Assembly (NCBI GenBank): GCA_034522055.1
Contig: JAXHLS010000002.1
Span: forward strand, 310,001-374,000
Reading direction: 5' to 3'
Origin: Gammaproteobacteria bacterium
Lineage (GTDB): Bacteria > Pseudomonadota > Gammaproteobacteria > JAABTG01
Length of the DNA stretch: 64,000 bases
Part shown: one piece after another, positions 3,473-53,494 of the stretch
Numbering within the stretch: the stretch's first letter is position 1
Layout of the letters: every line of letters starts with the position of its first letter
The notes under the pieces: model-generated
What the model was told of the DNA's origin: nothing
The model's input: only the letters and a program-made list of their open reading frames with translations
Databases searched by the model: none
Made by a program: the position numbers and the translations under genes

Positions 3473-3973
3473 CGTTCCTCCTGCGTTTGAATGTATTACC
3501 GGCAGAACCTATTGGGCCGCTTCGATAGCGTACACCATCGAAAATAGTGCGGCTCCCTGCGCCACTCGGCAAACGTCGAATTCTTCAACGTTTGTTCTAG
3601 GATAGACCCACCAATGGGTCTTCTGCATTGAAGAATCGCAAGTCACCCCGCGCCGCGCAGCCAGAGATACTTGAAGCGGGGCGGAGTTAGTGCCTTTTCA
3701 TTCCGCCCCCAGCAACTCGCGCACCCGCGCCGCGCTCACCAGGTAGGGTCTCCCAGCCTCCCTTGCAGGAAAGATGCCGGCCCCACCACCGGGCCCAGGG
3801 GCCGGCACGTGGTCCATAACCCCCGGCCACCGGGGCATTTGCACCGATATTCCATATCAGTCGGCCGGGGCGGGATGAGCCCGGGCCGGCGTGCCGGGCC
3901 CCGGCGCCCTGGTATGCCCCTTGCTTTGCACTTTGTAGATTCCGACACCATGAGCGAAGGATGGACGACGACC
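3473..3973. other. Intergenic region between divergent DUF883 and encapsulin operons
   Basis: About 500 bases without a credible gene. It contains inverted repeats: AAACGT/ACGTTT around 3573-3595, a perfect 7-bp hairpin (AGACCCA-CCAA-TGGGTCT) at 3604-3621, and a small palindrome GATAT-tcc-ATATC near 3847. A sigma-54-like promoter (listed separately) lies at its right end. Open frames crossing it lack family similarity and are taken as shadows. Confidence 0.6.
3909..3927 (+). promoter_or_regulatory. Probable sigma-54 promoter for the encapsulin operon
   Basis: The sequence TGGTATGCCCCTTGCTTT has GG at 3911-3912 and GC at 3923-3924 separated by exactly 10 bases, and a TTGCT element like the sigma-54 -12 box. 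Transcription would start near 3936, leaving a leader of about 38 bases before the EncFtn start at 3974. GG-N10-GC can arise by chance in GC-rich DNA, so this is a candidate. Confidence 0.45.
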
Positions 3974-37387: not shown

Positions 37388-38464
37388 TCAGGCGGTGCGT
37401 GGTTGCCCGCCGGGCGCCGCGCCGGTGTCGGCGGCGGCCCCCTGGGATGCCCCCCCCTTGCCGTAGACCTCCTCGTACCACAGATCGTGGTGCTGCCTCG
37501 CCCAGCCTTCGTCCACCTCACCCGTGATCATGCCCTCGAGGGAACCCTCGTTGCCCAGGGTGCCGAGATAGATATGGCCGAAGGACAGGGCGATGAGCAG
37601 GATGCTGGAGGCGGCGTGGATAAGGGTGGAGAGCTGCATGGTGCCACGTTCCCATCCCATATTGGGGAACAGCAGGATGGCCCCGGAGGCCATCATCACG
37701 ATACCGGCGAAGGTGAGGATCCAGAACCACATCTTCTCGCCGGCGTTGGCCTTGTAGGCATGGGGGTGTCCCTTGCCCAGGTAGCCGCCGCCGGCCTTGA
37801 ACCACTCCCAGTCCACCTTGGTCAGCAGGTTCTCGTGGGCCCAGGAGATGATCATGGCCAGCAGGCCCACCACGAAGAAAAGGGCCAGTATGTTATGGGA
37901 ATCCTTGGCGAACTGGGCATAGGCTGCGAAGGCCTCGGGGCCCATGACCGGGATGAGCACCGCGCGCCCGTAGAGCAGGCTGAGCCCGGTGATGGCCAGC
38001 ACGATGAAAAGGATGGCCACGAACCAGTGCATGACCCGCTCCCAGGCGCTCCATCGCATGACCTTGCGGCCGGTGCGTTCCTCGAGCTTCGCCCGTCCCC
38101 CCACCAGGTGGAAGAGGGCCAGTATCAGCAGGGAGGCGGCCATCAGCCAGCCACCGAAGAGGGCCAGGGGGCCGTTACGCAACTGGCGCCAGTTCTCGCC
38201 GCCATTCTGGATCAGGACATTGGTCTCCTGCCCCTTCACCGCCGTATAGCCCTGATTGCCCTCCCTCACGGCTCGCCAGTAGTCGGAGCGCGGGTTGGCG
38301 TCACCCTCGAACGCCGCCTCGGCGTCGGGCACGGCGCCATGCAGGAGGCCGAGCCCCAGGGGCAGGACCAGCGCCATCAGCGCCATCCCCACCATCAGCC
38401 ACATCCTGCGGACGCTGCCGGCGCGGGGCCGGCCTGAGTTACTGTTCTTGAGCATCTGGGGCAT
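37388..38464 (-). CDS. fdhC: Formate dehydrogenase cytochrome b subunit (gamma)
   Basis: A 358-residue membrane cytochrome b of the FdnI/FdoI type that passes electrons from FdhB to quinone. After a signal-like first helix (about 20-43) and a periplasmic loop, there are four transmembrane helices (about 102-122, 146-170, 195-215, 250-270, with a further one near 285-305). Candidate haem ligands include the His in WERVMHWFVAILF and in LIHAASSILLIALSFGHIYLG. The C-terminal DEGWARQHHDLWYEEVYGKG is characteristic of this subunit. AAGGAG lies 8 bases before the ATG. Last gene of the fdh operon. Confidence 0.92.
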   Translation of the reverse strand: MPQMLKNSNSGRPRAGSVRRMWLMVGMALMALVLPLGLGLLHGAVPDAEAAFEGDANPRSDYWRAVREGNQGYTAVKGQETNVLIQNGGENWRQLRNGPLALFGGWLMAASLLILALFHLVGGRAKLEERTGRKVMRWSAWERVMHWFVAILFIVLAITGLSLLYGRAVLIPVMGPEAFAAYAQFAKDSHNILALFFVVGLLAMIISWAHENLLTKVDWEWFKAGGGYLGKGHPHAYKANAGEKMWFWILTFAGIVMMASGAILLFPNMGWERGTMQLSTLIHAASSILLIALSFGHIYLGTLGNEGSLEGMITGEVDEGWARQHHDLWYEEVYGKGGASQGAAADTGAAPGGQPRTA

Positions 38465-39094: not shown

Positions 39095-39685
39095 CTACAC
39101 CTTGTCGCCGTAAGCGGCATCCCAGCCCCAGGTATCGGGGCGCCCGCCGCGCTTCAACACGCGCTTGCGATAGATGTCCGCGATGAGATCGCCGTCACCG
39201 GCGATGAGGGCCTTGGTGGCGCACATCTCCGCGCACGCCGGCAGCTTGCCCTCGGCGATGCGGTTGGCCCCGTACTTGGCGAACTCCTCGTCCGAGTTGT
39301 CCGCCGGCGGGCCGCCCGCGCAGAAGGTGCACTTGTCCATCTTGCCCCGCACGCCGAAGGCCTCCTGCTGGGGATACTGGGGCGCGCCGAAGGGACAGGC
39401 GTAGAAACAGTAGCCGCAGCCGATGCACAGGTCCTTGTCGTGGAGCACGATACCGTCCGTGGTGGTGTAGAAGCAGTCCACCGGGCACACCGCCGCACAG
39501 GGGGCGTCGGTGCAATGCATGCAGGCGACGGAGATGGACTTCTCCCCCGGCTCGCCGTCGTTCAGGGTGACCACCCGCCGGCGGTTGACCCCCCACGGGA
39601 CCTCGTTCTCGTTCTTGCAGGCGGTCACACAGCCGTTGCACTCGATGCAGCGGTCGGCGTCACAGAGAAATTTCATTCGGGCCAT
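39095..39685 (-). CDS. fdhB: Formate dehydrogenase iron-sulfur subunit (beta)
   Basis: A 196-residue subunit with four [4Fe-4S] clusters. Motifs: CIECNGCVTACKNEN (about 13-27), CMHCTDAPCAAVCP (about 55-68), CIGCGYCFYACP (about 87-98) and a fourth set CTFC ... CAEMCATKAL (about 119-157). There is no C-terminal membrane helix, so it relies on the cytochrome subunit for anchoring, as in FdhB of non-enteric proteobacteria. GAGGAG precedes the ATG. It lies 13 bases after fdhA and carries electrons from it to fdhC. Confidence 0.94.
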   Translation of the reverse strand: MARMKFLCDADRCIECNGCVTACKNENEVPWGVNRRRVVTLNDGEPGEKSISVACMHCTDAPCAAVCPVDCFYTTTDGIVLHDKDLCIGCGYCFYACPFGAPQYPQQEAFGVRGKMDKCTFCAGGPPADNSDEEFAKYGANRIAEGKLPACAEMCATKALIAGDGDLIADIYRKRVLKRGGRPDTWGWDAAYGDKV

Positions 39686-39698
39686 TGCTGCTCTCCTC

Positions 39699-42602
39699 TC
39701 AGGCTGACGTAATCTGACACAGGGTTGCCTTGGTCTCCTGCATCTGGGTCACCGAGTCATAGCCGTAGGTGGTGGCGGTGTTGCAGGCCTCGCCCCGCAT
39801 ATAGGGCGCCGTGCCCTCGGGATAGCGATCCACGAGGTCCTCACCCTGGAACCAGCCACCGAAGTGGAAGGGCGTCCAGATGACACCACGGCCCACCCGG
39901 GGCGTCACCATGGCCATGACCTTGATGCGCCCGCCCTCGGGCCCTTCCAGCCACACCCACTGGCCGTCCCTCAGGTTGCGGTCGTTGGCGTCGGCCGGGT
40001 TGATCTCCACGAACATGTCCTGCTGGAGTTCCGCCAGCCAGGGGTTGGAACGGGTCTCCTCGCCGCCGCCTTCGTACTCCGTCAAGCGGCCGCTGATGAA
40101 CACCAGGGGGTAGTCCCCCGAGTAGTCCTTGGCCTGAACCGAGGCGTAGCGCGTGGGCAGGCGCCAGAAGGCCTTGCGGTCCTCATAGGTGGGATATTTG
40201 GACACCAAGTCGTAACGCGCCGTATACAGGGGCTCGCGGTGGATGGGCACCGGGTCCGGGAACTGCCACACCACGCAGCGGGCCTTGGCATTGCCGAAGG
40301 GTGCCGCGCCGTGCTTGATGGCCACCCGCTGGATGCCGCCGGAGAGATCCGTCTTCCAGTTGCGTCCTTCCGCCGCCTCCTTCTCCGCGGCGGTGAGGTC
40401 ATCCCACCAGCCCAGTTGCTTGAGCATGTCGGCGGTGAACTCCGGGTGTCCGTCCTTGATCTCGGAGCCCTGGGGATAGGAACCCTCCGCCAGCAGGGTC
40501 ACGCCGTCGCGCTCCACGCCGAAACGGGCACGGAAGCACAGCCCGCCCTCGGCCACCGGCTTGCTGGGGTCGTAGAGGATGGGAGTACCCGGATGCTTCA
40601 TGTCCGCGCTGCCCCAGCAGGGCCAGGGCAGGCCGTAGTAATCACCGTCCGCGGGGCCGCCCTCGGCCCGCAGGGTGGTGGTGTTGAAGGTGTGGCGGTT
40701 GGCCATGTGCATCTTGAGCCGCTCGGGGCTCTGGCCGGTATAGCCGATGGTCCAGGTGCCGCGGTTGATCTCCCGCAGGGTGTCCTCGGGGTTGGGCATC
40801 TTGCCGTCCAGCTTGATGTGCTTGAACATCTGATCGGCGAAACCGAACTTCTCGGCCAGCAGATAGAGCACCTCGGCATCCGTCTTGGATTCGAACAGCG
40901 GCTCCACCACCTTCTCCCGCCACTGCAGGGAACGGTTGGACGCCGTCACCGAACCGGCCTGCTCGAACTGGGTGCAGGTAGGCAGCAGGTACACCCCGTC
41001 CTTGCGCTCGCTCATCACCGCGAGGTGAGTGGGATAGGGGTCGGAGATGACCACCAGGTCCAGGCGCGGGCTCTCCAGGGCCGCCTTCATGTCGACACCC
41101 CTGCTCTGGCTGTTGACCGCATGGCCCTGGAAGATGACGGCCCTGACGTTGTCCTTCTGAGACAGGTTGTCCTTGTCCTCCAGGATGCCGTCGATCCAGC
41201 GTGATACTGGCATGCCCGGGATATTCATGGTGTAGGCCATCTTGCCGCCGCCGGCGTCGTACTGGCGGGACATGTCGAAGCGCTCCTTCAGCCATTCGTA
41301 GTCCACATCCCACACCCGGGCCCAGTGCTTCCAGGCCCCCTCGGAAAGGCCGTAATAGCCCGGCAGGGTATGGCAGTTGGGCCCCACGTCGGTGGCGCCC
41401 TGCACGTTGTCATGGCCGCGAAAGATGTTGGCACCGCCGCCGGACACCCCGATGTTGCCGAGGGCCAGCTGCAGGATGCAGTAGGCACGGGTGTTGTTGT
41501 TGCCGATGTGGTGCTGGGTGCCGCCCATGCACCAGACGATGGTGCCGGGCCGGTGCTCCGCCATGGTCTTGGCGCACTGGTACATCTCCTGCTCGGGCAC
41601 CCCCGTCAGGTCCTCCACCGTCTTGGGGTCGAACTTCTTCGCCTCCTCACGGATGTCGTCCAGGCCGTAGACCCGCTGGGCGATGTACTCCTTGTCCTCC
41701 CAGCCGTTCTCGAAGATGTGCCACAGCAGGCCGTGAATGAAGGGTACGTCGGAGCCGGGCCGCAGGCGGATGTACTGGTCGGCGTGGGCCGCGGTGCGGG
41801 TGAACCGCGGGTCCACGACGATCATCTTGGCGCCGTTCTCCTTGCCCCGCAGGATGTGCTGCATGGCCACGGGGTGGGCCTCGGCGGCATTGGAGCCCAC
41901 GAACAACATGGCCTTGGCGTTATGCATGTCGTTGTAGGAGTTGGTCATGGCCCCGTAGCCCCAGGTGTTGGCGACACCTGCGACGGTGGTGGAATGACAG
42001 ATCCGGGCCTGGTGGTCGATGTTGTTGGAGCCCCAGAAGGCGGCGAACTTGCGCTGCAGGTAAGAGCCCTCGTTACTCGCCTTGGACGAACCGGCCATCC
42101 ACAGGGCGTCGGGGCCGGATTCCTCGCGGATCTGCAGGATCTTGTCGCCGATCTCGTCCATGGCCTGGTCCCAGGAGATGCGCTGCCACTTGCCGCCGGC
42201 GAGCTTCATGGGGTACTTGAGGCGCTTCTCGCCGTGGCCGTGCTCCCGCAACGCCGCCCCCTTGGCGCAGTGGGCCCCGAGGTTGATGGGCGACTCGAAG
42301 TCGGGCTCCTGACCGGTCCACACACCGTTCTGCACCTCGGCCATGACGCCGCAACCCACCGAGCAATGGGTACAGACGCTGCGGCGGATCTCGGTCGCGA
42401 CCCCGGCCTTGGGCGAGATGCTCTTGCCTTCTTCCGCCCGCAGCATGGAGAAGGGCACCATGCCGGCGATGGCGCTACCGCCCACGGCCAGCCCGGAGCG
42501 CTGCATGAAGGTGCGCCGACTCACCGCCTCGCCCTTGAACCCCAGGCCGATGCTGGTGCCGCTGTCCACCGCAGCCGTATTGCGCTTCTTGATCAGCTTC
42601 AT
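39699..42602 (-). CDS. fdhA: Periplasmic formate dehydrogenase catalytic subunit (alpha)
   Basis: A 967-residue molybdopterin (Mo or W) enzyme oxidising formate to CO2. It has a twin-arginine signal (SRRTFMQ, residues 28-34), an N-terminal [4Fe-4S] motif (C77, C80, C84, C112), and the catalytic metal ligand in QARICHSTT at C202, a cysteine rather than selenocysteine; no in-frame TGA is involved. The C-terminal molydopterin domain ends with RGEACNTATTYGYDSVTQMQETKA. The gene is part of fdhA-fdhB-lipoproteins-fdhC, led by a TorD-like chaperone and a small Tat protein. Confidence 0.96.
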   Translation of the reverse strand: MKLIKKRNTAAVDSGTSIGLGFKGEAVSRRTFMQRSGLAVGGSAIAGMVPFSMLRAEEGKSISPKAGVATEIRRSVCTHCSVGCGVMAEVQNGVWTGQEPDFESPINLGAHCAKGAALREHGHGEKRLKYPMKLAGGKWQRISWDQAMDEIGDKILQIREESGPDALWMAGSSKASNEGSYLQRKFAAFWGSNNIDHQARICHSTTVAGVANTWGYGAMTNSYNDMHNAKAMLFVGSNAAEAHPVAMQHILRGKENGAKMIVVDPRFTRTAAHADQYIRLRPGSDVPFIHGLLWHIFENGWEDKEYIAQRVYGLDDIREEAKKFDPKTVEDLTGVPEQEMYQCAKTMAEHRPGTIVWCMGGTQHHIGNNNTRAYCILQLALGNIGVSGGGANIFRGHDNVQGATDVGPNCHTLPGYYGLSEGAWKHWARVWDVDYEWLKERFDMSRQYDAGGGKMAYTMNIPGMPVSRWIDGILEDKDNLSQKDNVRAVIFQGHAVNSQSRGVDMKAALESPRLDLVVISDPYPTHLAVMSERKDGVYLLPTCTQFEQAGSVTASNRSLQWREKVVEPLFESKTDAEVLYLLAEKFGFADQMFKHIKLDGKMPNPEDTLREINRGTWTIGYTGQSPERLKMHMANRHTFNTTTLRAEGGPADGDYYGLPWPCWGSADMKHPGTPILYDPSKPVAEGGLCFRARFGVERDGVTLLAEGSYPQGSEIKDGHPEFTADMLKQLGWWDDLTAAEKEAAEGRNWKTDLSGGIQRVAIKHGAAPFGNAKARCVVWQFPDPVPIHREPLYTARYDLVSKYPTYEDRKAFWRLPTRYASVQAKDYSGDYPLVFISGRLTEYEGGGEETRSNPWLAELQQDMFVEINPADANDRNLRDGQWVWLEGPEGGRIKVMAMVTPRVGRGVIWTPFHFGGWFQGEDLVDRYPEGTAPYMRGEACNTATTYGYDSVTQMQETKATLCQITSA

Positions 42603-42902: not shown

Positions 42903-43535
42903 TCACTCGGGCAGGGCGAGGTATTGCCTCTCGAACTGCATGAACTGCTCTCCCAGCAACCCCACGGCGCGGTAGAAGCGCGCGCTCTGGGCCTGCTGGA
43001 GGTCCCGGAAAAACCGTTCCATCCAGGGGGCGAGGTGGGTATCGAACCACGCCTGCTGGACGCCGTCGTCCCCCCGCTCGATCATCACCGCCATCGACTC
43101 GCACAGCGCCGCGACGTGGTCCTCGGGCTCGCTGACGCCGGGGCGGGCCTCGATGCCGTAACGGGCCAGGTCCTGACGCAACTGGGCCAGAGGGCGCTCC
43201 ATCAGGAACCCGGTGAGGTACCAGGACGCGTAGGGCACCAACTCGCCGCGGCCGATGCCGATGAAGAGGTCGTGGTACTCGTCCTCGAGTTCCCTGGGCC
43301 ACGCATTGGTGCCGGCCTGTTGCAGCAACTGCCAGCTCGCGGCCAGGCCGTCGCCCTCCGCGGCGCTCGCCTCGATGCCCCGCAGGCGTTCCAGCACCCC
43401 CGCGTCCGGCGGCGCCGCCAGCAGAGTCCCCAGCAGGGCGTAGGTACCGGCCCGCAACAGATCCTCCTCCAGCATACCGGCCATGGGCGCGGGGGGGGCG
43501 ATGGCTTCCTGTCGGGCGATAGTATCGGGTTGCAT
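42903..43535 (-). CDS. TorD/DmsD-family chaperone for the formate dehydrogenase
   Basis: A 210-residue all-helical protein of the TorD family that holds cofactor-less molybdoenzymes until they are ready for Tat export. Recognisable: RAGTYALLGTLLAAPPD (about 29-45), ELEDEYHDLFIGIGRGELVPYASWYLTGFLMERPLA (about 90-125) and a late PWMERFFRDLQQAQSARFYRAVGLLGEQFM. The start at 43535 is chosen because the sigma-54 promoter would start transcription near 43559, which excludes the ATG at 43565. First gene of the fdhA block. Confidence 0.88.
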   Translation of the reverse strand: MQPDTIARQEAIAPPAPMAGMLEEDLLRAGTYALLGTLLAAPPDAGVLERLRGIEASAAEGDGLAASWQLLQQAGTNAWPRELEDEYHDLFIGIGRGELVPYASWYLTGFLMERPLAQLRQDLARYGIEARPGVSEPEDHVAALCESMAVMIERGDDGVQQAWFDTHLAPWMERFFRDLQQAQSARFYRAVGLLGEQFMQFERQYLALPE

Positions 43536-43567: not shown

Positions 43568-43586
43568 TTAGCAAGCCCCACGCCAA
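43568..43586 (-). promoter_or_regulatory. Probable sigma-54 promoter of the torD-like/fdhA operon
   Basis: Minus-strand TTGGCGTGGGGCTTGCTAA: GG and GC separated by 10 bases, with TTGGC and TTGCT close to the sigma-54 consensus. Expected start of transcription near 43559, giving a leader of about 24 bases. Confidence 0.7.
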
Positions 43587-43696
43587 GGTGTTTGGAAAAG
43601 AAACGGTAAATACGGACGAATTGCCGGAGCAACGAGGACCGATCCGTCCCGCGGGCCCCTGCCATCCGCCGGCCTGACCCAACGGCCCGGCATGGC

Positions 43697-43709
43697 GGAC
43701 AAAATGTCC
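43697..43709. promoter_or_regulatory. Palindromic operator GGACA-AAA-TGTCC upstream of the fdhA promoter
   Basis: A perfect 5-bp inverted repeat around AAA, about 115 bases upstream of the sigma-54 -24 box, the usual distance for an enhancer-binding activator. Similar GGACA boxes lie upstream of the DUF3305 promoter at 46621-46660. Confidence 0.5.
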
Positions 43710-43742
43710 TTCAAGGAACATCCCGAAGCATTCAGCATGGGT

Positions 43743-45428
43743 CTAGGGACGGTCCCCAGTCCGCGTCTCCGAGGGCCCGGAGGCGTAGAAGTCCCGCACC
43801 CGGCAGTCCTCGCACATCTGCAGGCGACGCCGGCTCTCGGGGGTCTGGAACATCCAGTGATCGCTCAGCTTGGCGAGCATGCGGTCCATCATGCGCCGGG
43901 TGGCGAAGGGCTTGCCGCAGCCGACACAGCGGAAGGGCTCTTCCTCGTAAAGCACCCGGGTCTCGCGACGGCGCGTGGCCTCGTAGAGGTAACGGGGCGA
44001 CGTCGTTACGCAATCTTCCGGACAGGCCCCCACGCACAGGCCGCACTGCACACAGTTGTCTTCCAGGAAACGCAGCTGGGGACTCTCGCCGCCCGCAAGC
44101 AAGGCGCCGGCGGGACACACGGAGACACAGGCCATGCACAGGGTGCAGCGCTGTTCATCCACCGTTACCTGGCCGAATGGCGCGCCCGCGGACAGCTCCG
44201 TCGAGGGACGGGGCGCGGGGGCATGCGCCCACAGATGATCCATGGCCAGGCGCACGGTGGTGCGTTTCTCGTCGAAGGCGGCGAAGCGGGCCGCCGGCGG
44301 CGGATCCAGATCATCCAGTCCCTGCAGCGCCAACGGCATGTCGTCCCCCGCCACCATGGCGATGCGCCCGCCGGCGTGCCCCATGCCCTCCAGCATCTCC
44401 CGGGCGATGCCGAGCTGATGGGCCAACTCCCGGGCCACCGAGGCCGGCACGCTGGCGGGGATCAACAGGCGCACGTGGCACGCCCCATAGGCCAGGATGG
44501 CGAGCCAGGCATCCATGCCCACGGACCCCACCTCCTCCACCGCCACCGGCAGCACCCGGCCCGGCAGGGCGGCGGCGTGGCGGGCCACCAGCTCCGCCCC
44601 CGCACTGGTGTCGTGGAACAGCACGCAGGCCTGGCCGCCGCCGGCCTCGTGGTAGGCGCCCAGCAGCCGGCGCAGGGCGCCGATGAGTTCTACGGGACGC
44701 GGAAAGGCATAGCGGATGGCCCCCGTGGGGCAGGCAGTGGCGCAGCTGCCGCCACCCTGACACAGGAAGGGGTCCACCTCGATCCGCTCCCCCAGGGAGG
44801 TGATGGCCTCGGTGGGGCAGGCATCGATGCAGCGGGTGCAGGCCTGGATACCGCTGCGGCCGTGGGCGCAGATGGCGGCGTCGTACGAGAAAAAACGGGG
44901 CTTGTCGAACTCCCCCGCCAGGTCGGGGATCGCGGCCAAGGCGGCCTCCAGGCGCTTCTCATCATCTTCGGGGGCGAAATAACCGGGGGGCGGCACCTCG
45001 CGCCGAAGGCTGGGCGGCGTGGCGAGGTCCAGCACCACGTCGAAGTACCCGCCGGCAGGGCCCGCCAGGGTGGCGAGGTCCACCTCCCGTTCCCCGTCCA
45101 TCACGGTCACGCTGAAGCGGCCGAGGTGACCCTCCAGCCGTTGCGGCCGCCCGGGGATGACGCTGACACCATTGCCCGCCGGGCGCCCCCCGGCGCTGGT
45201 GTCGGCAAGCACCGTGCACTCCACGGCCCCGGCGAGGCGCCGCGCCGTGGCCACCGCCACATCCTGGGGACCGATGATGAGCACCCGCCCCGCCGAGGTG
45301 TAGGTGACCATCTCGATGTCCAGCGCCTCGGCCCCAGCTACCGCGGCCAGGGCAGCGGCCCGGGCCTTGCCATTCGCGGTGGCCGTGGACAGGCCACCGT
45401 GGCCACCCGCTTCCTCAACCACGCGCAT
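43743..45428 (-). CDS. Polyferredoxin-like 4Fe-4S protein of the formate dehydrogenase locus
   Basis: A 561-residue cytoplasmic iron-sulfur protein. Two ferredoxin pairs are visible: CTRCIDACPTEAI with CQGGGSCATACPTGAI (about 200-245), and CTLCMACVSVCPAGAL with CVQCGLCVGACPEDC (about 425-475). A further CVGCGKPF and CEDCRV near the C-terminus may bind metal. Between them is a non-cluster domain (about 250-410). The ATG at 45428 has GGAG upstream and overlaps the DUF3306 stop. Proteins like this accompany fdh clusters with DUF3305/3306; an electron-transfer or maturation role is inferred. Confidence 0.85.
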   Translation of the reverse strand: MRVVEEAGGHGGLSTATANGKARAAALAAVAGAEALDIEMVTYTSAGRVLIIGPQDVAVATARRLAGAVECTVLADTSAGGRPAGNGVSVIPGRPQRLEGHLGRFSVTVMDGEREVDLATLAGPAGGYFDVVLDLATPPSLRREVPPPGYFAPEDDEKRLEAALAAIPDLAGEFDKPRFFSYDAAICAHGRSGIQACTRCIDACPTEAITSLGERIEVDPFLCQGGGSCATACPTGAIRYAFPRPVELIGALRRLLGAYHEAGGGQACVLFHDTSAGAELVARHAAALPGRVLPVAVEEVGSVGMDAWLAILAYGACHVRLLIPASVPASVARELAHQLGIAREMLEGMGHAGGRIAMVAGDDMPLALQGLDDLDPPPAARFAAFDEKRTTVRLAMDHLWAHAPAPRPSTELSAGAPFGQVTVDEQRCTLCMACVSVCPAGALLAGGESPQLRFLEDNCVQCGLCVGACPEDCVTTSPRYLYEATRRRETRVLYEEEPFRCVGCGKPFATRRMMDRMLAKLSDHWMFQTPESRRRLQMCEDCRVRDFYASGPSETRTGDRP

Positions 45429-46014
45429 GGCCGTCTCCTATGTTTCCATCCGTTGCGTCTTCATCCGCGGCCGCGGTCCCGACCGTGTCGGAAAGGCCGG
45501 CATGGGCAGGTGCCGCGGGGGACACCGGCCCATCGCCGGACGGCCCGGCCGTATCCTCCGGCGCCTCAGCCACCACCTCCGCCCTGGCCTCGGCCTCCCG
45601 CAGCCGCGCCTCCAGACGCTCCTGCTGGCGCCGCATCTCCGTGGTCACGATATCCCCCAGGGCCTCGAAGTTGCGGTAGTCCTCGTCGTAGTCATCCAGC
45701 CCGTCGCGGATGTTGAACTTGGGTCCGCGGAACAGCCGCTTGAGGGCCGCCTGACGCAGATCCTCGCTGACGCCCGAGGAGAAGAAAGGGCTCAGGTCGC
45801 TGTGATCGTCGATGGTGGACAGATCGGGCATCTCCGCGTCCGTGAGAACCGGCGCCGGCTCACCGGCGGGCGGAGCGGCGTCAGCCCCGGCGGTCTCCTC
45901 CACCGGCTCCGGCTCCTGCTCCAGGCCGCGCTTGCGCCGCGACCAGCGTCGCAGGAAGGGCTGGCCCTCCGTCCCGTCGTGGGCGACACCGCTGTCATCT
46001 TGCGGGTGGCGCAC
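45415..46014 (-). CDS. DUF3306 family protein
   Basis: A 199-residue acidic, low-complexity protein. The family signature FLRRWSRRKRG is near residue 20, and FFSSGVSEDLRQAALKRLFRGPKFNIRDGLDDYDEDY lies in the middle; the ends are rich in Ala, Pro, Glu and Asp and probably disordered. The GTG at 46014 is chosen for its strong Shine-Dalgarno (AAGGAGG, 6 bases upstream); an ATG at 46041 is in frame. Overlaps DUF3305 upstream and the polyferredoxin downstream. Function unknown; consistently linked to formate dehydrogenase. Confidence 0.8.
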   Translation of the reverse strand: MRHPQDDSGVAHDGTEGQPFLRRWSRRKRGLEQEPEPVEETAGADAAPPAGEPAPVLTDAEMPDLSTIDDHSDLSPFFSSGVSEDLRQAALKRLFRGPKFNIRDGLDDYDEDYRNFEALGDIVTTEMRRQQERLEARLREAEARAEVVAEAPEDTAGPSGDGPVSPAAPAHAGLSDTVGTAAADEDATDGNIGDGHARG

Positions 46015-46504
46015 CGGCGGCCTCCTTCTTCCAGTCTTCACGGCGCCGCTTGCGGGGCGGCTCGGGCTTGTAGTGGTCCATCACATAACGCTCGAGGCGC
46101 TGATGGATCTCCGGTGGCATGGGAGTGGAGAACACGGTGTCGTCCGCCTCCATGTGGGCGCCCGCCTCGTCATGGTCCGCGGACACCGCGCAGGGCTCCA
46201 GCTCGCCGGCTTCGTTCTCCCGGCACACCACGAACAGGGACGGGTTGCGACCCACGAGGTTGTACCAATAGCTCTCGGCACTGTCTTTGAAAAAGCTCAA
46301 CATGAACCCGGGCCACACGAACTGCTCCATCCCGTCCTCGACGTGCACCTGCTGCCGCCCCTGCTCGGTATCAGCGATAGCCCCGGCCACCACCCCCACC
46401 AGTTGCCAGTCGGGGTAGCTCCAGCCGCGGTGAGTCGCCATGCGCCGGCTCATGATCACCGCCACCGGGATGGCGTCCCGGTCCGTTATGGTCTCCTCAG
46501 CCAT
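45995..46504 (-). CDS. DUF3305 family protein
   Basis: A 169-residue soluble protein. The family stretch IPVAVIMSRRMATHRGWSYPDWQLVGVV is at residues about 12-40 and YWYNLVGRNPSLFVVCR near 79-95; the C-terminus is basic (PPRKRRREDWKK). A near-perfect Shine-Dalgarno (AGGAAGGAGG) precedes the ATG. First gene of the DUF3305-DUF3306-polyferredoxin block and directly downstream of a sigma-54-type promoter. Biochemical function unknown. Confidence 0.85.
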   Translation of the reverse strand: MAEETITDRDAIPVAVIMSRRMATHRGWSYPDWQLVGVVAGAIADTEQGRQQVHVEDGMEQFVWPGFMLSFFKDSAESYWYNLVGRNPSLFVVCRENEAGELEPCAVSADHDEAGAHMEADDTVFSTPMPPEIHQRLERYVMDHYKPEPPRKRRREDWKKEAAGAPPAR

Positions 46505-46547
46505 GGAACCTCCTTCCTGAAGCCCGAAAGATTAAATATAGATTAAT

Positions 46548-46566
46548 AATGCAATAGGCACACCAA
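46548..46566 (-). promoter_or_regulatory. Probable sigma-54 promoter of the DUF3305 block
   Basis: Minus-strand TTGGTGTGCCTATTGCATT has GG at 46564-46563 and GC at 46552-46551, 10 bases apart, with TTGCA at the -12 element. Transcription would begin near 46539, 35 bases before the DUF3305 ATG. Confidence 0.7.
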
Positions 46567-46620
46567 CCCACCAACCACGGAACCACGCCCGCAGAACGGA
46601 ACCCGGGAACGCAATTTCTG

Positions 46621-46660
46621 GGACATTTCGTACCGATGCCCCACGTTATGGGACAAAATG
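46621..46660. promoter_or_regulatory. Candidate enhancer sites upstream of the DUF3305 promoter
   Basis: Two related boxes: GGACATTTCGTACCGATG (46621-46638) and GGGACAAAATG (46650-46660), 60-100 bases upstream of the sigma-54 box. The first contains CATTTCGTAC, which matches the left part of the FhlA-binding sequence of E. coli as I remember it. The rest of the gene-free region 46505-46976 holds no gene that I can support; the divergent hsdM promoter is not obvious. Confidence 0.45.
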
Positions 46661-46976
46661 ACGCGCCCCCTTTCCCCTACCTGCCCCACCCTCTTGCCCT
46701 ATCCATCCAACGGCCCTATGTCGCCACCCCCCCCCTTTTATTGAAGGATGTTCCCCCATACCCACCCGCCTCGCCCCACCCACGCCTCCCCGCGCCAGCG
46801 CCCAAACCCGGGGCCACCCACCGCGCGTGACTCTATAGAATAGTGCCGGAGAATAGTGCCGGGTACGGAAGAGCGACCCAAGGCCAGCGGCGACGCCCGA
46901 CGGAGGACCGGCGACGGGAGGAGTTCCCGGAGCTATTTCCGGCACAATGAAATCAACGCGGGATACGGAGTAAAAC

Positions 46977-48980
46977 GTGGCACAACTCGAACACATCGAA
47001 GCCATCGAAAAACGCCTGTGGAGCGCCGCCGACAACCTGCGCGCCAACTCCAACTACGCCAGCAACGAATACTTCCTGCCGGTGATGGGCCTGGTGTTCC
47101 TGCGCCACGCCTACAGCCGTTATCTGATGGTAAAGGAACAGATCGAACCCCATCTGCCCAGCCGCGGCGGCAAGACCCGTGCCCTGACCAAGGAGGACTT
47201 CTCCCAGCGAAGCGCCATTTATCTCAGGCCCGCGGCCCGGTTCGATTCTCTGGTGGCCCTGCCCGACAGCGCCGACCGCGCCCGCGCCATCATCGAGGCC
47301 ATGGAGTCCATCGAGGCGGATTACGAGAACCTGCGCGGCACCCTGCCCAAAGGCGAATACCAGGAGCTGGACAACCAGGTGCTCGGCCAGTTGCTGCGCA
47401 CCCTCAACCCCGAGGAGCTGAACCGGGTTTCGGGCGATGTCTTCGGCCGCATCTACGAATACTTCCTCACCCAGTTCGCCGACCAGGGTGCCCACGACGG
47501 CGGCGAGTTCTTCACCCCCATATCCCTCGTCTCCCTCATCGCCCACGTCCTCAACCCGGCCAGGGGCACCGTGCTGGACCCGGCCTGCGGCTCCGGCGGC
47601 ATGTTCGTGCAGAGCGCGCGCATCGTCGAGGAACACGGCGACAGCCCCACCGAAAAGCTTACCTTCCGCGGCCTGGAGAAAAACGCCACCACCATCCGCC
47701 TGGCCAAGATGAACCTCGCCGTGCACGGCCTCGAAGGCGACATCCAGAAGGCCATCACCTACTACGAAGACCCCCACGAACTGGTGGGCAAGGCCGACTA
47801 CGTCATGGCCAATCCGCCCTTCAACGTCGACGAGATCGACGCCGACAAGGTCAAGTCCGACCCGCGCCTGCCCTTCGGCCTGCCCGGCGTCAACAAAAAG
47901 GAAAAGGTCAGCAACGGCAACTACGTCTGGATCAGCTACTTCTACAGCTACCTGAACGACAAAGGCCGCGCCGGCTTCGTCATGTCCTCCCAGGCCTCCA
48001 GTGCCGGCGGCGGCGAGGCCAAGGTGCGACAGAAACTGGTGGAGACCGGCGACGTGGACCTCATGATCGCCATCCGCTCCAACTTCTTCTACACCCGCAC
48101 CGTGCCCTGCGAGCTGTGGTTCATTGATCGGGGCAAGCCCGATCAACCCTCATCCCCGGCCCTTCTCCCAGAGGCAGAAGGGGGAAAAACAAGGCAGTAT
48201 CGGGGTGGCCATGATTTCAGCGGACTGGTGGAGCGAGCGCGTGAGCTCCGCAAAAAACAGACTCCGGCGGAAGAGCTGTTCTGGGAACTTGTTCGTAACC
48301 GTCAATTCCTTGGGCTCAAGTTTCGCAGACAGCATCAGGCAGGTGACTACATCCTCGACTTCTATTGCCACGAAGCCGGTATCGCCATCGAGATCGATGG
48401 CCCTGTTCATGACAAACGCAAGAAAAAAGACGCAAAGAGTGATGCCTATCTGAAATCACAAGGCATTCGCGTTGTGCGTATAGAAAACGCCGCATTGCTT
48501 AACGATACCGAAGCAACGCTAGGCAATCTGGCCAAGCAGATCAGTGCTATCGGAGAAAGTCCTCTCCCTTTGGGAGAGGATTTAGGTGAGGGTAGATTTT
48601 CTAGCCCACTAAACCGCAAGGGCCATGTGCTCATGCTTGATGCCAGAAACATCTACCGAAAAGTCACCCGGAAAATCTATGACTTCTCCCCCGAGCAGCA
48701 GCAAAACCTGCAAGCCATCGTCTGGCTCTACCGGGGCGCGACCAACCGCTACCTGCAACTGCTGTCGCAATACCTGGGTAATGTCGCCGACGAAGCCATC
48801 GCCTGTTTCAAAGTCGAAGACGACCTGGGCCACACCTTCCACCCCCTGGCGGACTTCAGCGACGCATTAGATGCCCTGCGCCAAGCCCTCGCGCCATATT
48901 TGAAAACACCCTTCCGAAAGATCATTCGCTTCCCCACTCAGGCAGAGGCCAGGGTGAGGGTGGTCTATCGGAAGTTGTAA
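46977..48980 (+). CDS. hsdM: Type I restriction-modification methyltransferase HsdM, with in-frame DUF559 insertion and frameshifted end
   Basis: A 667-residue product. Residues 1-387 are a normal HsdM: N-terminal helical domain, the AdoMet motif DPACGSGG at about 201-208 and the adenine-methylase motif NPPF at 279-282. Family alignment from memory runs from TVPCELWFIDRGKP straight to HVLMLDARNIYRKVTRKIYDFSPEQ, yet here about 160 residues intervene (388-548) containing a DUF559 endonuclease domain between palindromic modules. After LAPYLKT a further module shifts the frame and the product ends in unrelated residues (TQAEARVRVVYRKL); the true C-terminus continues in another frame from about 48962 to 49606. 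Methylation activity is doubtful. Confidence 0.85.
   Translation: MAQLEHIEAIEKRLWSAADNLRANSNYASNEYFLPVMGLVFLRHAYSRYLMVKEQIEPHLPSRGGKTRALTKEDFSQRSAIYLRPAARFDSLVALPDSADRARAIIEAMESIEADYENLRGTLPKGEYQELDNQVLGQLLRTLNPEELNRVSGDVFGRIYEYFLTQFADQGAHDGGEFFTPISLVSLIAHVLNPARGTVLDPACGSGGMFVQSARIVEEHGDSPTEKLTFRGLEKNATTIRLAKMNLAVHGLEGDIQKAITYYEDPHELVGKADYVMANPPFNVDEIDADKVKSDPRLPFGLPGVNKKEKVSNGNYVWISYFYSYLNDKGRAGFVMSSQASSAGGGEAKVRQKLVETGDVDLMIAIRSNFFYTRTVPCELWFIDRGKPDQPSSPALLPEAEGGKTRQYRGGHDFSGLVERARELRKKQTPAEELFWELVRNRQFLGLKFRRQHQAGDYILDFYCHEAGIAIEIDGPVHDKRKKKDAKSDAYLKSQGIRVVRIENAALLNDTEATLGNLAKQISAIGESPLPLGEDLGEGRFSSPLNRKGHVLMLDARNIYRKVTRKIYDFSPEQQQNLQAIVWLYRGATNRYLQLLSQYLGNVADEAIACFKVEDDLGHTFHPLADFSDALDALRQALAPYLKTPFRKIIRFPTQAEARVRVVYRKL
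48147..48592 (+). mobile_element. Insertion carrying a DUF559 (Vsr-like fold) endonuclease domain, bounded by inverted palindromic modules
   Basis: The left module (CCCTCATCCCCGGCCCTTC then TCCCAGAGGCAGAAGGGGGA) and the right module (CCTCTCCC-TTT-GGGAGAGG then ATTTAGGTGAGGG) are inverted copies of one pattern. Between them, in the hsdM frame, lies a DUF559 domain: ARELRKKQTPAEELFWELVRNRQFLGLKFRRQ, GDYILDFYC, IAIEIDG with PVH, then GIRVVRIEN. The D-x(n)-E-x-D core fits the PD-(D/E)xK/Vsr fold. A possible internal start is the TTG/GTG region near 48222-48241. It is frame-neutral in the host gene. The exact ends are uncertain; foreign sequence probably spans 48139-48623. Confidence 0.75.
48929..48960 (+). 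repeat. Second palindromic module in hsdM (frameshifting)
   Basis: CTTCCCCACTCAGGCAGAGG followed by CCAGGGTGAGGG, the same pattern as the right end of the DUF559 element, lies where hsdM switches from frame of codons starting at multiples of 3 to the next-but-one frame. Confidence 0.7.
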
Positions 48981-49606
48981 AAGAGCTAGACCAGGAAACC
49001 CAACAGTTCCAGCAGGACGTCGACGAGTTCCGCAAAAGCGCGAACGAAGCCGTCAAGAACTGGAAAAAGGCTCCCGACACCAACGCCGCTCTGGTCAAAC
49101 TCACCGCCACGTTCGAGCCTCTCGCCGAGGCCAGCCGCGACCTCATCAAACAGACCGACCTCGTCTACAAACTCGCCACCCGCCTCATCGACGAAGTGTC
49201 ATCTTCCCCTCTCCCCCCGGGAGAGGGGCCAGGGGTGAGGGCAACAACCCGCGACCTCACCCGCGCCCGCAAGGCCGCCGACGAAGCCCGCGGCATCGCC
49301 GTCGAGCAACTGAAAAAGGTCCGCTACTTCTGGAAACAGGCCCACTGGCTCACCGACCGCTTCCCCCAAGGCCAACTGCGCGACGTGGAAGGCCTGGTCA
49401 AGTTGGTGGACATCAAAGAAATCGAAGCCAACGACTGGAGCCTCACCCCCGGCCGCTACGTCGGCGTCGCTCCCGAGGAAGTAGACGAGGACTTCGACTT
49501 CGAAGAGACCCTGCGCGAAATCCACGTGGAGCTGGAAGACCTCAATGCCGAGGCCGTTAAGCTGGCCGCGACGATTAAACGGAATTTTGAGAAGTTGGGG
49601 GTATGA
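48962..49606 (+). pseudogene. hsdM: 3' part of hsdM, out of frame with the 5' part
   Basis: About 215 codons that complete HsdM: KELDQETQQFQQDVDEFRKSA, DLVYKLATRLIDE, then after a third module TRARKAADEA, QLKKVRYFWKQAHWLTDRF, ANDWSLTPGRYVGVAPEE and a coiled C-terminus ending NFEKLGV. There is no ATG, GTG or TTG in this frame before 49196, so without frameshifting it is not translated as a full segment; a product starting at the GTG 49196 (136 residues) is possible. The stop overlaps the hsdS start (ATGA). Confidence 0.8.
49206..49241 (+). repeat. Third palindromic module in hsdM (in frame)
   Basis: CCCCTCTCC-CCCCGG-GAGAGGGG followed by CCAGGGGTGAGGG, translated in frame as SSSPLPPGEGPGVRA between LIDEV and TTRDLTR. 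Same module family and orientation as the two upstream. Confidence 0.8.
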
Positions 49607-50094
49607 CCACGAAACCGCTTGGTGGCCGTCGAAAGATCCCTCCGGGCTGGAGGCCAGTGACCCTTGACGAAATCAAGTCTCCAGATCTCGATGCCTGCCG
49701 CGCTGGTCCGTTTGGATCAAGTATCAGTCGCAAGTTTTTTGTCAAGCAAGGTATACCGGTAATACGCGGAAACAATCTTACAACCAATTTGGTTGAGTTT
49801 GTTGCTGATGAGTTCGTGTATGTATCTGAAGAACGGGCAAGAGATAAATACAAGAACTGTCTAGTCCGGCCTGGCGACCTCGTGTTTACTTGTTGGGGAA
49901 CTATTGGCCAAGTTGGTCGCATTCCTCGAGATGGTCCATTCGGCGAGTATGTGATTTCAAATAAGCAACTAAAGCTCCGTACCAACCCATCGTTTGCGAA
50001 TAGCAAATTCGTCTACTACTACGTCGCCTCAAAGGCAGGCGTCGAATACATCGAAAGCCGAGGCATTGGGGCGGCTGTACCAGGTATCTCGTGA
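49603..50094 (+). pseudogene. hsdS: Type I specificity subunit HsdS, 5' part, truncated by insertion
   Basis: Codes for 163 residues of the first target-recognition domain: IPPGWRPVTLDEI, CRAGPFGSSISRKFFVKQGIPVIRGNNLT, VRPGDLVFTCWGTIGQVGRIP and VEYIESRGIGAAVPGI. The reading frame then meets a TGA inside the left inverted end of the 2.68-kb insertion. Joining the flanks at the duplicated CAGGTAT restores AAVPGINLGILKSIPI in frame with the second part at 52774-53494. Base composition is lower in GC than the metabolic genes, as usual for recognition domains. Confidence 0.9.
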
Positions 50095-50108
50095 GTCCCG
50101 ACTTCTCG

Positions 50109-51551
50109 TCAGGACGCGAGTCGGAACATGCTGATTCTTTCAGTGTCCTGCCGTTCGGTGATGAATTTTGCCAGGGAATGGGTTTTGGCGGAACTCAAGA
50201 GAAATTCCGGCAGCGTGTTGCGTAGCGCATGAGTGACGACGAGTTCCGACGGGGAATACCCGGGTCGGATCGTCCGCAGCCACGAGCCGAAGGATTTCCA
50301 GATGAGCTGCGGGAAAACCACCGACAGATACTGAAGCAAGCCTTGAGCGACGACGCCGGCCTGCATGAAGACGTGGTAGGCGTGGATCTTGCGTTTGACG
50401 TTCTCGCGATACCTGCGCGTTTCCCGGTGCAGGTATTGATTGCCCTTGCGGCGTTTGAGCGGCTTCATGTCCTGCATCCAGAAGTGATAGGCGAAGGTGC
50501 CGATCTGTCGGACGGCCTGCTTGAAGCTGTGCTCGATCTTGAAGCGCAGGCCGTAGAGGCGAATGATCTCGACGGCGTCCAGGGCGACGTCGGTGCACAT
50601 CAGCAGGGAAGAGCCTCTGGTCGGGTGGATGACGGCGACGAAGCGCACGAGCTGTCCGGCGGGCCGCCAGAGCAGGTCTCGGACCTGGTACCGAATCGTG
50701 ACGTTGTCCTCGCCGTAGACGGGGCTTGGCGCGGATTGGAAGTCGTTCGTGTCGTTCAGCAGTGACCTGAGCTTGAGCTTCTTCCCGTAGCGTCTCGGCC
50801 GGCCTCTTTTCCTCGGGCCGCGCTGGTGATAGGGGGTGTAAGCGACGGCATTGGATCGGACGCGGGTGACGAGATGGTTGCCCTCGGCGATGAGGCCGCG
50901 AACCATCTTGCCGGCGGCGTAGTAGGCATCGGCAACGTAGTAGAAGGGTTCCGTGATCGCCACGGTCTGAATCAGGGCGAGCATCTTGTCGAGCAGGGTG
51001 CGCCGGTCGCGATTGGAGAAGACGAGGCCCTCGTGGATGCGCACGGCGAGGGGGACAGCGAAGACGCTTTGGTCGGCCTCAACCAGCAGGCTCACCGCCT
51101 GAAGGGAGTGTCCCATGATGTATTCGGGCTTGGTGTTGGCGTCGGACTGCTGATGCAATAGCTTCACGGCGGGCATCTTCTTGCCGCGCTTGGGGACTTT
51201 GATCCCGTCCCCGACCATGACGCGGCGGCCGTTGACGAGCAGCGGCGCGGGAAAGAGCCGCAGCACGGCCTGGGTCCACAGCGCCGCGAGCCGCTCGAGC
51301 TTGATGGCGCGGCTGTGGAACGAATCCAGCAGGTTGTCGTAGAAGCGGGGCTTGAGGGCGAGCGCCCGCACGAGGCTGGTCACGCCTAAAAGATCGCCTC
51401 GCACGGTGAGACCGGCCACGGCGGTGGCGAACCACAGGAAGGTGCGCAGGCGCGAGAACGCCGGACGCAGCAGCCAGATTGCTTCCACCAGGACTCCCAT
51501 AGCGACATCGTCCACCTCCCATGAAGTGAATGAAACGGTGATTTGGCCCAC
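50109..51551 (-). CDS. DDE-type (IS4-like fold) transposase
   Basis: A 480-residue transposase ending 21 bases inside the left inverted end. Acidic residues fitting a DDE triad are seen in MVGDGIKVPKRGKKMP (about 122-137), FYYVADAYYAAGKMVRGL (about 205-222) and RLYGLRFKIEHSFKQAVRQIGTFAYHFW (about 335-362, the Y-(2)R-(3)E-(6)K-like C1 region with E after KI). The remainder is basic. The ATG at 51551 gives the longest frame; MGVLVEAIW at 51500 is also possible. Intact, so the element may still move. Confidence 0.85.
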   Translation of the reverse strand: MGQITVSFTSWEVDDVAMGVLVEAIWLLRPAFSRLRTFLWFATAVAGLTVRGDLLGVTSLVRALALKPRFYDNLLDSFHSRAIKLERLAALWTQAVLRLFPAPLLVNGRRVMVGDGIKVPKRGKKMPAVKLLHQQSDANTKPEYIMGHSLQAVSLLVEADQSVFAVPLAVRIHEGLVFSNRDRRTLLDKMLALIQTVAITEPFYYVADAYYAAGKMVRGLIAEGNHLVTRVRSNAVAYTPYHQRGPRKRGRPRRYGKKLKLRSLLNDTNDFQSAPSPVYGEDNVTIRYQVRDLLWRPAGQLVRFVAVIHPTRGSSLLMCTDVALDAVEIIRLYGLRFKIEHSFKQAVRQIGTFAYHFWMQDMKPLKRRKGNQYLHRETRRYRENVKRKIHAYHVFMQAGVVAQGLLQYLSVVFPQLIWKSFGSWLRTIRPGYSPSELVVTHALRNTLPEFLLSSAKTHSLAKFITERQDTERISMFRLAS

Positions 51552-51564
51552 CGCGCGGGGCCGG

Positions 51565-52254
51565 TTATGGAGAAGGCGTGCCGGGCTCGGGCTCCTGGAC
51601 TTCCACGGCCATCACGGCCGAGAGCACCGCCAGGCGCTCGGCGGGCGGCATGGCCTCGTAGCGGCGGGCCCAGCTCACCGCCTTGCGCTTGATGCGTTGG
51701 CGGTCCGTGAAGTTCTTGCCCGCATAGCGCGCCCAGTGCAGGCGCTCGACGCTGAAGTTGAACCACAGCTTCTCGGTGACGACGCCCGCCTGGTTCATCA
51801 CCTGAAGCTCGAGGCTGCGCCACCCGGCCAGCCGCTCGTCGTAGAGCGCCGAGGGGTAGCCGGAGAGGATCACGTGACAGGGCAGGCACTTGAGCAGCTC
51901 GAGCAACGCCACGTGGTCGTGCTCTTCGTAGTCGAAACGGTATCGGCGCTCGCCGCGGCGGGTCGGCTGCAGATAGGGCGGGTCGCAGTAGATGAGCTCT
52001 CGCCCCCGATACGCATACTCGGCCAGGAATCGGTGCGCGCAACCATGCACCAGCTCGACCGGATAGGGGCATTCGAACTTCGCGAGTGCTCGCCGATTGC
52101 GGTCGATGCCGATGTTGACGAGCGCCGGCGGCTTGCGTTGCATGATCGCCCCGCCGCCGAGGTGGCTCTCGATGTAGGTGTCGTGGGGCGGCATCAGGGC
52201 GATGATCGCCTGGCACAAACCCGACGTCGCCTTCGATCCGAAGTAGCTGCCCAT
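51565..52254 (-). CDS. DNA adenine methylase (Dam-like), passenger of the element
   Basis: A 229-residue N6-adenine methyltransferase of the D12/alpha class. Motif I is YFGSKATSGL at residues 4-13 with SHLGGGAIM (about 30-38), and the catalytic motif IV DPPY is in LIYCDPPYLQP (about 93-104). The C-terminal part (about 150-215) is basic. Resembles phage-type orphan methylases; no cognate nuclease is nearby. It lies 13 bases from the transposase on the same strand and inside the inverted ends. A role in protecting the element or regulating transposition through methylation is inference. Confidence 0.88.
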   Translation of the reverse strand: MGSYFGSKATSGLCQAIIALMPPHDTYIESHLGGGAIMQRKPPALVNIGIDRNRRALAKFECPYPVELVHGCAHRFLAEYAYRGRELIYCDPPYLQPTRRGERRYRFDYEEHDHVALLELLKCLPCHVILSGYPSALYDERLAGWRSLELQVMNQAGVVTEKLWFNFSVERLHWARYAGKNFTDRQRIKRKAVSWARRYEAMPPAERLAVLSAVMAVEVQEPEPGTPSP

Positions 52255-52386
52255 CGCTGCCGATCCGTGTCCGTGACGACCAGCAGACTAGCTTCATTCA
52301 GCTAGGGTGTCAAACGACATCGATGACTCGGCGGCAGCGCCTTGCGTACCTGATGATCGAACGTCCGCCAGTGTTATGCTATCGAC

Positions 52387-52741
52387 ATGAGTGAGAAGCA
52401 TCCCTTCGCCGGCGGGCTACTCGACTACATGGGCTCGTCCCAGGGCCAACGCTCCATCGAAGTTTCAGACGCTCTCTGGGCGCTCATGGACGACGTGCAG
52501 CTCGATCCCGGACGACGCGAGATCATCTGGCCCGAGGCCCAACGCCTCAGCTTCGATCAGTCCATCGAATGCATACAGAAGGCGTATCCGGACTTCCCTC
52601 GTGAGCGTATTACGAGCTTCCCTGATCTCCTGGCTCGAGCACTACGCCCCGGAAGATTACTCCCGGGAACAACTAGACGAACTCGATGCGCTCACCGAAG
52701 ACTGGCTCGACGAGCTCGAGGGTCAGTACGGGGAGCAATAA
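52387..52741 (+). pseudogene. Small passenger gene of the element, frameshifted
   Basis: The frame starting at 52387 gives HPFAGGLLDYMGSSQGQRSI and continues acidic/structured to about IQKAYPDFPRER; the sensible continuation (ASLISWLEHYAPEDYSREQ, then LDELDALTEDWLDELEGQ) is in the next frame, ending at 52741. A +1 shift around 52605-52625 joins them to a roughly 118-residue acidic protein. Not recognised. It is divergent from the methylase. Confidence 0.65.
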
Positions 52742-52773
52742 CCGCCGAGAACTCGGGACTCTTGAGCAGGTAT

Positions 52774-53494
52774 TAACTTAGGAATATTGAAATCAATTCC
52801 AATTGCTTTACCACCGATTAAGATCCAAGAGTCTATCGTCGCAATCCTCTCCGCCTACGACGACATGATCGAAAACAACCGCCGCCGCATCCAGTTGCTG
52901 GAACAGTCCGCCCGACTGCTCTACAACGAATGGTTCGTCCACCTCCGCTTCCCCGGCCATAAGCATGTCAAAATCAAAGACGGCGTGCCGGAGGGGTGGG
53001 AGAAGAAAACTATTGGCGAGTTGGCGCCGCTAAAGTATGGCAAGGCACTGAAGGCGGATGACCGGGTTCCAGGTCCATACTTAGTCTACGGTTCAAGTGG
53101 CGTAGTCGGCACCCACGACAAAGCACTTGTGCCAGGCCCTGCAATTATCGTGGGAAGAAAAGGCAACGTAGGAAGCGTCTACTGGGCGAGCAGTGGCTTC
53201 TACCCCATCGATACCGTCTACTACATCGACCCCAAAAACTGCAACCTTTACTTGTACTACGCATTGCTCAACACGCAGTTCATCAGCACCGACGTCGCGG
53301 TTCCCGGACTTAACAGAGATTACGCTCACAGCCGTGCACTACTCGTACCTGACGTAAAGATTCTGACGCTGTTCGAGCAGCATGCAGTCGAAATACATAA
53401 ACAGATCGAGTGCCTCACAAAATACAACGCATCTCTCACTAAAGCCCGCGACCTACTCCTGCCGCGCCTGATGAACGGGGAGGTCGCAGTATGA
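52774..53494 (+). pseudogene. hsdS: Type I specificity subunit HsdS, 3' part
   Basis: About 240 codons continuing HsdS: LGILKSIPIALPPIKIQESI, the central conserved helix ILSAYDDMIENNRRRIQLLEQSARLLYNEWFVHLRFPGHKHV, a second recognition domain (IGELAPLKYGKALKADDR ... GNVGSVYWASSGFYPIDTVYY ... PGLNRDYAHSRALLVPDV) and the terminal coiled coil ending LLLPRLMNGEVAV. The only start is a TTG at 52787 without ribosome site. The stop overlaps the OLD-nuclease ATG. Both halves look intact, so loss of the element would restore the gene. Confidence 0.9.

Follow-up and report, generated by a model that had tools for sequence, protein, structure and literature searches.

How the genes of a respiratory formate dehydrogenase are switched on is the question raised by the 64-kb stretch of DNA analysed here (the window), which belongs to the 5.14-Mb genome of a gammaproteobacterium (genome G000). 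From the sequence of this stretch, the initial annotation had proposed that two sigma-54 promoters with a shared GGACA enhancer control the formate dehydrogenase locus, a proposal that is supported by conservation of the arrangement across genera. RpoN is encoded in the genome. Very probably, the two promoters and their palindromic enhancer form a dedicated formate dehydrogenase regulon, the likely activator of which is an NtrC-type protein encoded outside the window, between mobA and fdhD.

Predicted promoters and operators of the formate dehydrogenase locus

The elements and genes concerned are the following, in window positions.

46649..46665, no strand assigned: TGGGACAAAATGACGCG, predicted enhancer site 1 for the DUF3305 operon, centred some 93 bp upstream from the -24 GG
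46619..46635, no strand assigned: TGGGACATTTCGTACCG, predicted enhancer site 2 for the same operon, 30 bp away from site 1 and some 63 bp upstream from the -24 GG
46550..46566, minus strand: predicted sigma-54 promoter of DUF3305-DUF3306-FeS, TTGGTGTGCCTATTGCA; score 17.4 of 19.4
45995..46504, minus strand: DUF3305 gene, first in the operon (PF11749, E 3.4e-39)
45415..46041, minus strand: DUF3306 gene (PF11748)
43743..45428, minus strand: gene of a multi-4Fe-4S (FeS) protein with Fer4 domains
43697..43709, no strand assigned: candidate torD enhancer, palindrome GGACAAAATGTCC; its centre precedes the -24 GG by 119 bp
43570..43586, minus strand: predicted sigma-54 promoter of torD-fdhABC, TTGGCGTGGGGCTTGCT; score 18.1 of 19.4
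42903..43535, minus strand: torD, TorD-family chaperone gene (PF02613); revised start, as suggested by where the promoter lies
39699..42602, minus strand: fdhA, catalytic subunit of formate dehydrogenase; catalytic position predicted to be Cys
39095..39685, minus strand: fdhB, FDH3-type beta subunit (NF038355, 341 bits, cut-off 240)
37388..38464, minus strand: fdhC, gamma (cytochrome b) subunit of formate dehydrogenase (TIGR01583, 174 bits, cut-off 116)

Both GG-N10-GC boxes described initially are present on the minus strand, at 43584-43571 (GGCGTGGGGCTTGC, contained in TTGGCGTGGGGCTTGCT) and at 46564-46551 (GGTGTGCCTATTGC, contained in TTGGTGTGCCTATTGCA), each in a TTGGCACG-N4-TTGCW-like context. 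Promoter scores of at least 16.8 were reached at only eight places on both strands of the 64 kb, and the two boxes look like real sigma-54 promoters. A separate observation concerns the top sigma-54-like element of the window, CTGGTATGCCCCTTGCT at 3909-3925 on the plus strand (score 18.2), which shortly precedes a small two-gene set; by eye, the second of these genes resembles one for an encapsulin-type shell protein.

The transcription starts of both promoters are predicted ones. At torD the start codon had to be revised: because the 43.57-kb promoter is expected to start its transcript at about 43560, which falls inside the first possible ATG (43565-43563), translation most likely begins at ATG 43535-43533, behind a leader of about 25 nt.

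DUF3305 operons were gathered from other genera, their hosts including Candidatus Thiodiazotropha, the Solemya velum symbiont, Sedimenticola, Cocleimonas and Thiogranum, and yielded 93 non-redundant upstream regions, the own genus being left out. Enumeration of any 5+5 dyad over these regions, with 20 shuffled sets, returned GGACA-N3-TGTCC as the top dyad (27 observed versus 1.2 expected; z 21, the largest shuffled z being 6.5), and most of the runners-up were this palindrome again, in another phase or a variant form. The refined operator, TGGGWCA-WWW-TGWCCCA, was present in 70 of the 93 regions (3.2 in shuffles) and 50 of 60 operator pairs were spaced by 30-33 bp. A sigma-54 element was found in 64 of the regions (1.6 in shuffles). 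Promoter and operator occurred together in 63 cases and were both missing in 22, with seven regions carrying the operator only and one the promoter only (Fisher p 3e-14). Gene by gene among sulfur-oxidising Gammaproteobacteria, sigma-54 elements preceded DUF3305 in 63/91 and torD in 52/75 cases; for DUF3306, the FeS gene, fdhA, fdhB and fdhC they numbered one to three each, near shuffle level.

When the 64-kb window was ranked with the operator matrix, which had been trained without the own genus, sites 46649-46665 (20.2 bits) and 46619-46635 (17.8 bits) came first and second, the next match scoring 11.2 bits. They coincide with the second palindrome group originally placed near 46621-46660, which reads GGGACATTTCGTACC and GGGACAAAATGACG within 46620-46662. 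Comparison with the sister species of the same genus (genome G001) showed conserved footprints at the two enhancers and the promoter of DUF3305, and likewise at the torD promoter, which reads TTGGCGCGGGGCTTGCT there.

The palindrome at 43697, GGACA-AAA-TGTCC, is present as first reported. Its status is less clear, since the promoters and the 46.6-kb enhancers are conserved across genera but this site has no conserved counterpart in the sister genome. It combines a perfect core with ill-fitting flanks and reached 5.7 bits with the full matrix, rank 18 in the window; among relatives, operators were located near DUF3305 in 71/91 cases and near torD in only 20/75, so that the torD enhancer is weak. 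It is therefore possible, if on balance somewhat doubtful, that the 43697 site plays no part in torD transcription: with promoter and enhancers of DUF3305 taken as real, the torD promoter would rely on those enhancers, some 3 kb upstream, or on a degenerate site. Against this stand the rarity of the dyad, the distance of 119 bp to the -24 element, which is common among relatives, and the perfect operator sites that some relatives have at torD. Exact GGACA-N3-TGTCC dyads occur at eight places in the whole genome, one of them between mobA and the activator gene; the spacer is dominated by A and T in only two of the eight, the window locus and this mobA/activator intergenic region (AAA and GAA). 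Four one-mismatch operator matches (C2:975175, C2:1187689, C2:2389809 and C6:864304) were dismissed as targets because each lacks both a second site and, within 330 bp, a sigma-54 element, and is situated in or beside frames without evident formate link.

The candidate activator and its neighbourhood

No sigma-54 activator domain was found in the 64-kb window, in agreement with the earlier remark that it holds no regulator gene. The genome encodes 19 full activators, and the candidate among them is the gene C6:137674-139089, located between mobAB-moeA and fdhD. Its product consists of a receiver (PF00072), a sigma-54 AAA+ domain (PF00158) and a Fis-type helix-turn-helix (HTH) domain (PF02954), and the GAFTGA loop is present in 63 of 69 activator ortholog rows, own genome included. 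With this receiver, GAFTGA AAA+ and Fis-type HTH arrangement, the protein resembles Group I (NtrC/AtoC/ZraR-type) response regulators, and its closest solved relatives are of the NtrC family, e.g. 4l4u and 1ny5. It differs from them in falling outside the named subfamilies and, in the own genus, in the loss of the phospho-acceptor Asp. Because it scores below every named NCBIfam cut-off, it is, judged by its sequence, a member of an unnamed subfamily of NtrC-type regulators; no description of it was found in the literature searched (open-licence papers only).

The gene order is moeA-mobB-mobA, activator, a regulator with HTH_17 and PBP_like domains, and fdhD, with mobA divergent from the activator gene. 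A perfect dyad (C6:137555) lies between the two divergent genes, and the four best operator matches of the 19.9-kb activator region are a pair in this mobA/activator interval and a pair before fdhD. One sigma-54 element faces mobA, and another, TGGGAATGGTTTTTGC, faces fdhD and is conserved in the sister genome.

In relatives, the usual layout is moeA-mobB-mobA-tupCBA, activator-kinase, HTH/PBP regulator-fdhD and DUF3305-to-fdhC. Promoter and operator were found at tupA in 16/26 relatives, and TupA-type tungstate uptake genes (L134, L145, L195, L221 and other loci) share operator and sigma-54 promoter with the cofactor genes. This suggests a tungsten-dependent enzyme in species that have TupA under the operator. 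The TupA gene of the own genome (C6:45852) has neither operator nor sigma-54 element within its 3.8-kb locus.

The HTH_17 and PBP_like regulator (L058:13179-14099, minus strand), which adjoins fdhD, is likewise kept beside the formate dehydrogenase and activator cluster in relatives. No solved relative of it was found by sequence. It is possibly a molybdate, tungstate or formate sensor, and one may speculate that it provides a second input to the activator system.

Sensor kinase and receiver in relatives and in the own genus

The kinase search covered 26 genomes, of which 25 or 26 bear the activator; in 17 a kinase gene adjoins it. The periplasmic part of this kinase matches sCache_3_3 and Cache_3-Cache_2, and in its model the distal module is CitA/DcuS-like (Z 17, rmsd 2.3 over 128 residues). 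In the proximal module, an R followed three and 16 residues later by T is present in 51-52 of 53 rows, the same spacing as that of the formate-binding residues R142, T145 and T158 of PacF (PMC12501870); one sCache_3_3 receptor with such residues has been shown to bind formate (PMC12415202). The likeness to PacF and other sCache_3 formate chemoreceptors thus extends to the Cache_3 family and to the three residues. The proteins differ in that the kinase of the relatives is a histidine kinase and not a chemoreceptor, and in that PacF binds formate in its distal module, whereas the motif of the kinase sits in the membrane-proximal one. The motif region was modelled at pLDDT under 50, and a fold search with the sensor model did not list the 8py0/8py1 chains that had been found by sequence search. 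The kinase of the relatives likely senses formate, or a related carboxylate, through its Cache domain.

Such a PacF-like kinase is absent from the genus of the window: none was found in the own genome or in the sister genome, and the phospho-acceptor position of the receiver is occupied by Ala in both (FDLIIAAVGLPG in the own genome, FDLIIVAVGLP in G001). The combination of a phosphorylatable Asp with a cognate kinase, which most relatives possess, is thus missing here. Among 45 activators, Asp is kept by every one of the 32 that adjoin a kinase gene and have a readable site, and is lost in five of the 11 without an adjacent kinase (p 0.0005). On the tree, these correspond to three separate losses, in the own genus (Ala), in a Thiogranum group (Ser, Ala) and in G199 (Glu), and they are confined to kinase-less lineages.

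With the kinase missing and Asp replaced by Ala, the activator of the own genus would have to work without phosphorylation. It is probably in use by such a route, because 84% identity is kept between the two species over nearly the full length. The same two losses may also be read as signs that the protein is inactive and decaying, the operon being silent or under another promoter. This reading is unlikely in view of the degree of identity just given and of the intact GAFTGA loop; in addition, promoters and paired operators are footprinted between both species, and no sigma-70-like promoter was found in 42.6-47.0 kb.

Other activators, FhlA and the proposed regulon

The assignment of the operators to the mobA-fdhD activator is based on location and co-occurrence. 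Orthologs, accepted at 384 bits or more (next best proteins 351 bits at most), were found in 24/46 genomes with DUF3305 and in 0/14 genomes without it. They are often on the same contig as the formate dehydrogenase operon, often within 1-30 kb, and this co-location recurs in many genera. Presence of the operator before DUF3305 tracks that of the activator (20/25 versus 4/13, p 0.005); some genomes of the co-occurrence test were also used for the operator matrix, the own genus never. Of the four genomes with operator but without activator, one, G355, does carry a syntenic activator, which scores below the cut-off, whereas the other three are fragmented assemblies; it is worth noting that the relatives are partly metagenome-assembled genomes, from which genes may be missing.

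Besides the weak torD enhancer and the sister genome's lack of the 43697 site, several points weigh against the proposed regulon. Scoring of the sigma-54 elements, with 19.4 as maximum, used weights chosen by hand after the known consensus; five activator-bearing genomes (G313, G071, G111, G217 and G097) have no operator before DUF3305; the pairing of kinase and activator, as well as formate sensing, are deduced from adjacency and residue resemblance only; and the genome encodes 18 other full activators. Operator and activator are thus not matched one to one, and the operators might be bound by another of the 19 activators, that of mobA-fdhD having other targets. We regard this as very unlikely, since the same operator pair precedes both fdhD and mobA, the divergent neighbour of the activator gene, since the activator is co-located with the formate dehydrogenase operon, and since it is absent from every genome without DUF3305.

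The initial annotation had also been reminded of the FhlA target of enteric bacteria, a link that was not supported. The operator of FhlA is CATTTCGTACGAAATG (PMC4987338), one half of which equals CATTTCGTAC at 46622-46633. This ten-base likeness is limited to one site of one genome, the sister genome reading CGATTTGTCCC there, and the family operator, TGGGWCAWWWTGWCCCA, has a dyad axis unlike that of FhlA. A search for an FhlA-like activator gave no protein at the family cut-off, the best score in the genome being 365.5 of the required 830 bits, for the AAA+ part only; the N-terminal region of FhlA had no match among the activators of the genome and the candidate itself scored 261.9 bits, so that, by these sequence scores, the candidate is not FhlA. 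That these promoters are activated in the enteric manner, through a formate sensor of the FhlA kind, has on these grounds a negligible probability. The formate hydrogenlyase regulon remains comparable as a sigma-54 regulon for formate oxidation and enzyme maturation with palindromic enhancers upstream. FhlA differs in having an N-terminal formate-binding region in place of a receiver and in its recognition sequence (PMC4987338); in the present system a receiver-AAA+-HTH activator would act on another operator and on a respiratory FDH3-type enzyme.

The proposed regulon would operate as follows. Sigma-54 RNA polymerase would wait at TTGGYGYGNNNNTTGCW promoters before DUF3305, torD, mobAB-moeA and fdhD, while the NtrC-type activator would bind the palindromes, which as a rule come in pairs at a distance of about three helical turns, and open the promoters through ATP hydrolysis. 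Both operator binding and promoter activation are predictions. Enzyme subunits, chaperone, FdhD and the cofactor nucleotidyltransferase would in this way be co-produced. In most relatives, the periplasmic Cache kinase encoded after the activator would phosphorylate it, probably upon sensing formate or a related carboxylate, and in the own genus the activator would function without phosphorylation.

Operons of the same type, DUF3305/DUF3306-torD/dmsD-fdhGHI, have been presented as a chaperone association (PMC4464133); the available part of that article gives no promoter, operator or regulator. More generally, no description of transcriptional control in this respiratory formate dehydrogenase family was found in the open-licence literature.

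Outside the formate dehydrogenase locus, the window carries a type I restriction system, in which the HsdM frame (46977-48980, plus strand) has a complete DUF559 domain (amino acids 419-522) in frame behind the methylase domain. The specificity gene (49603-53494) seems split into pieces 49603-50094 and 52787-53494 (plus strand), and between them lie a DDE transposase (50109-51551, minus strand) and a possible DNA methylase-like frame without Pfam hit (51565-52254, minus strand).

On a wider scale, the case is evenly balanced for a widespread, as yet undescribed formate-responsive two-component sigma-54 system in sulfur-oxidising Gammaproteobacteria and animal symbionts that controls respiratory formate dehydrogenase, tungstate uptake and cofactor genes. 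This system would repeatedly have become one-component, the kinase being lost and the receiver Asp turned into Ala, Ser or Glu in three lineages, the own genus among them, with DNA targets unchanged. The analysis provides a predicted operator, a candidate activator gene and a probable formate sensor for a family of respiratory formate dehydrogenases that includes those of chemosynthetic animal symbionts. One regulator would co-ordinate the enzyme with sulfurtransferase and cofactor genes and, in relatives, with tungstate uptake genes, and the recurrent loss of kinase and phosphorylation site provides a natural test of an NtrC-type activator running without phosphorylation.

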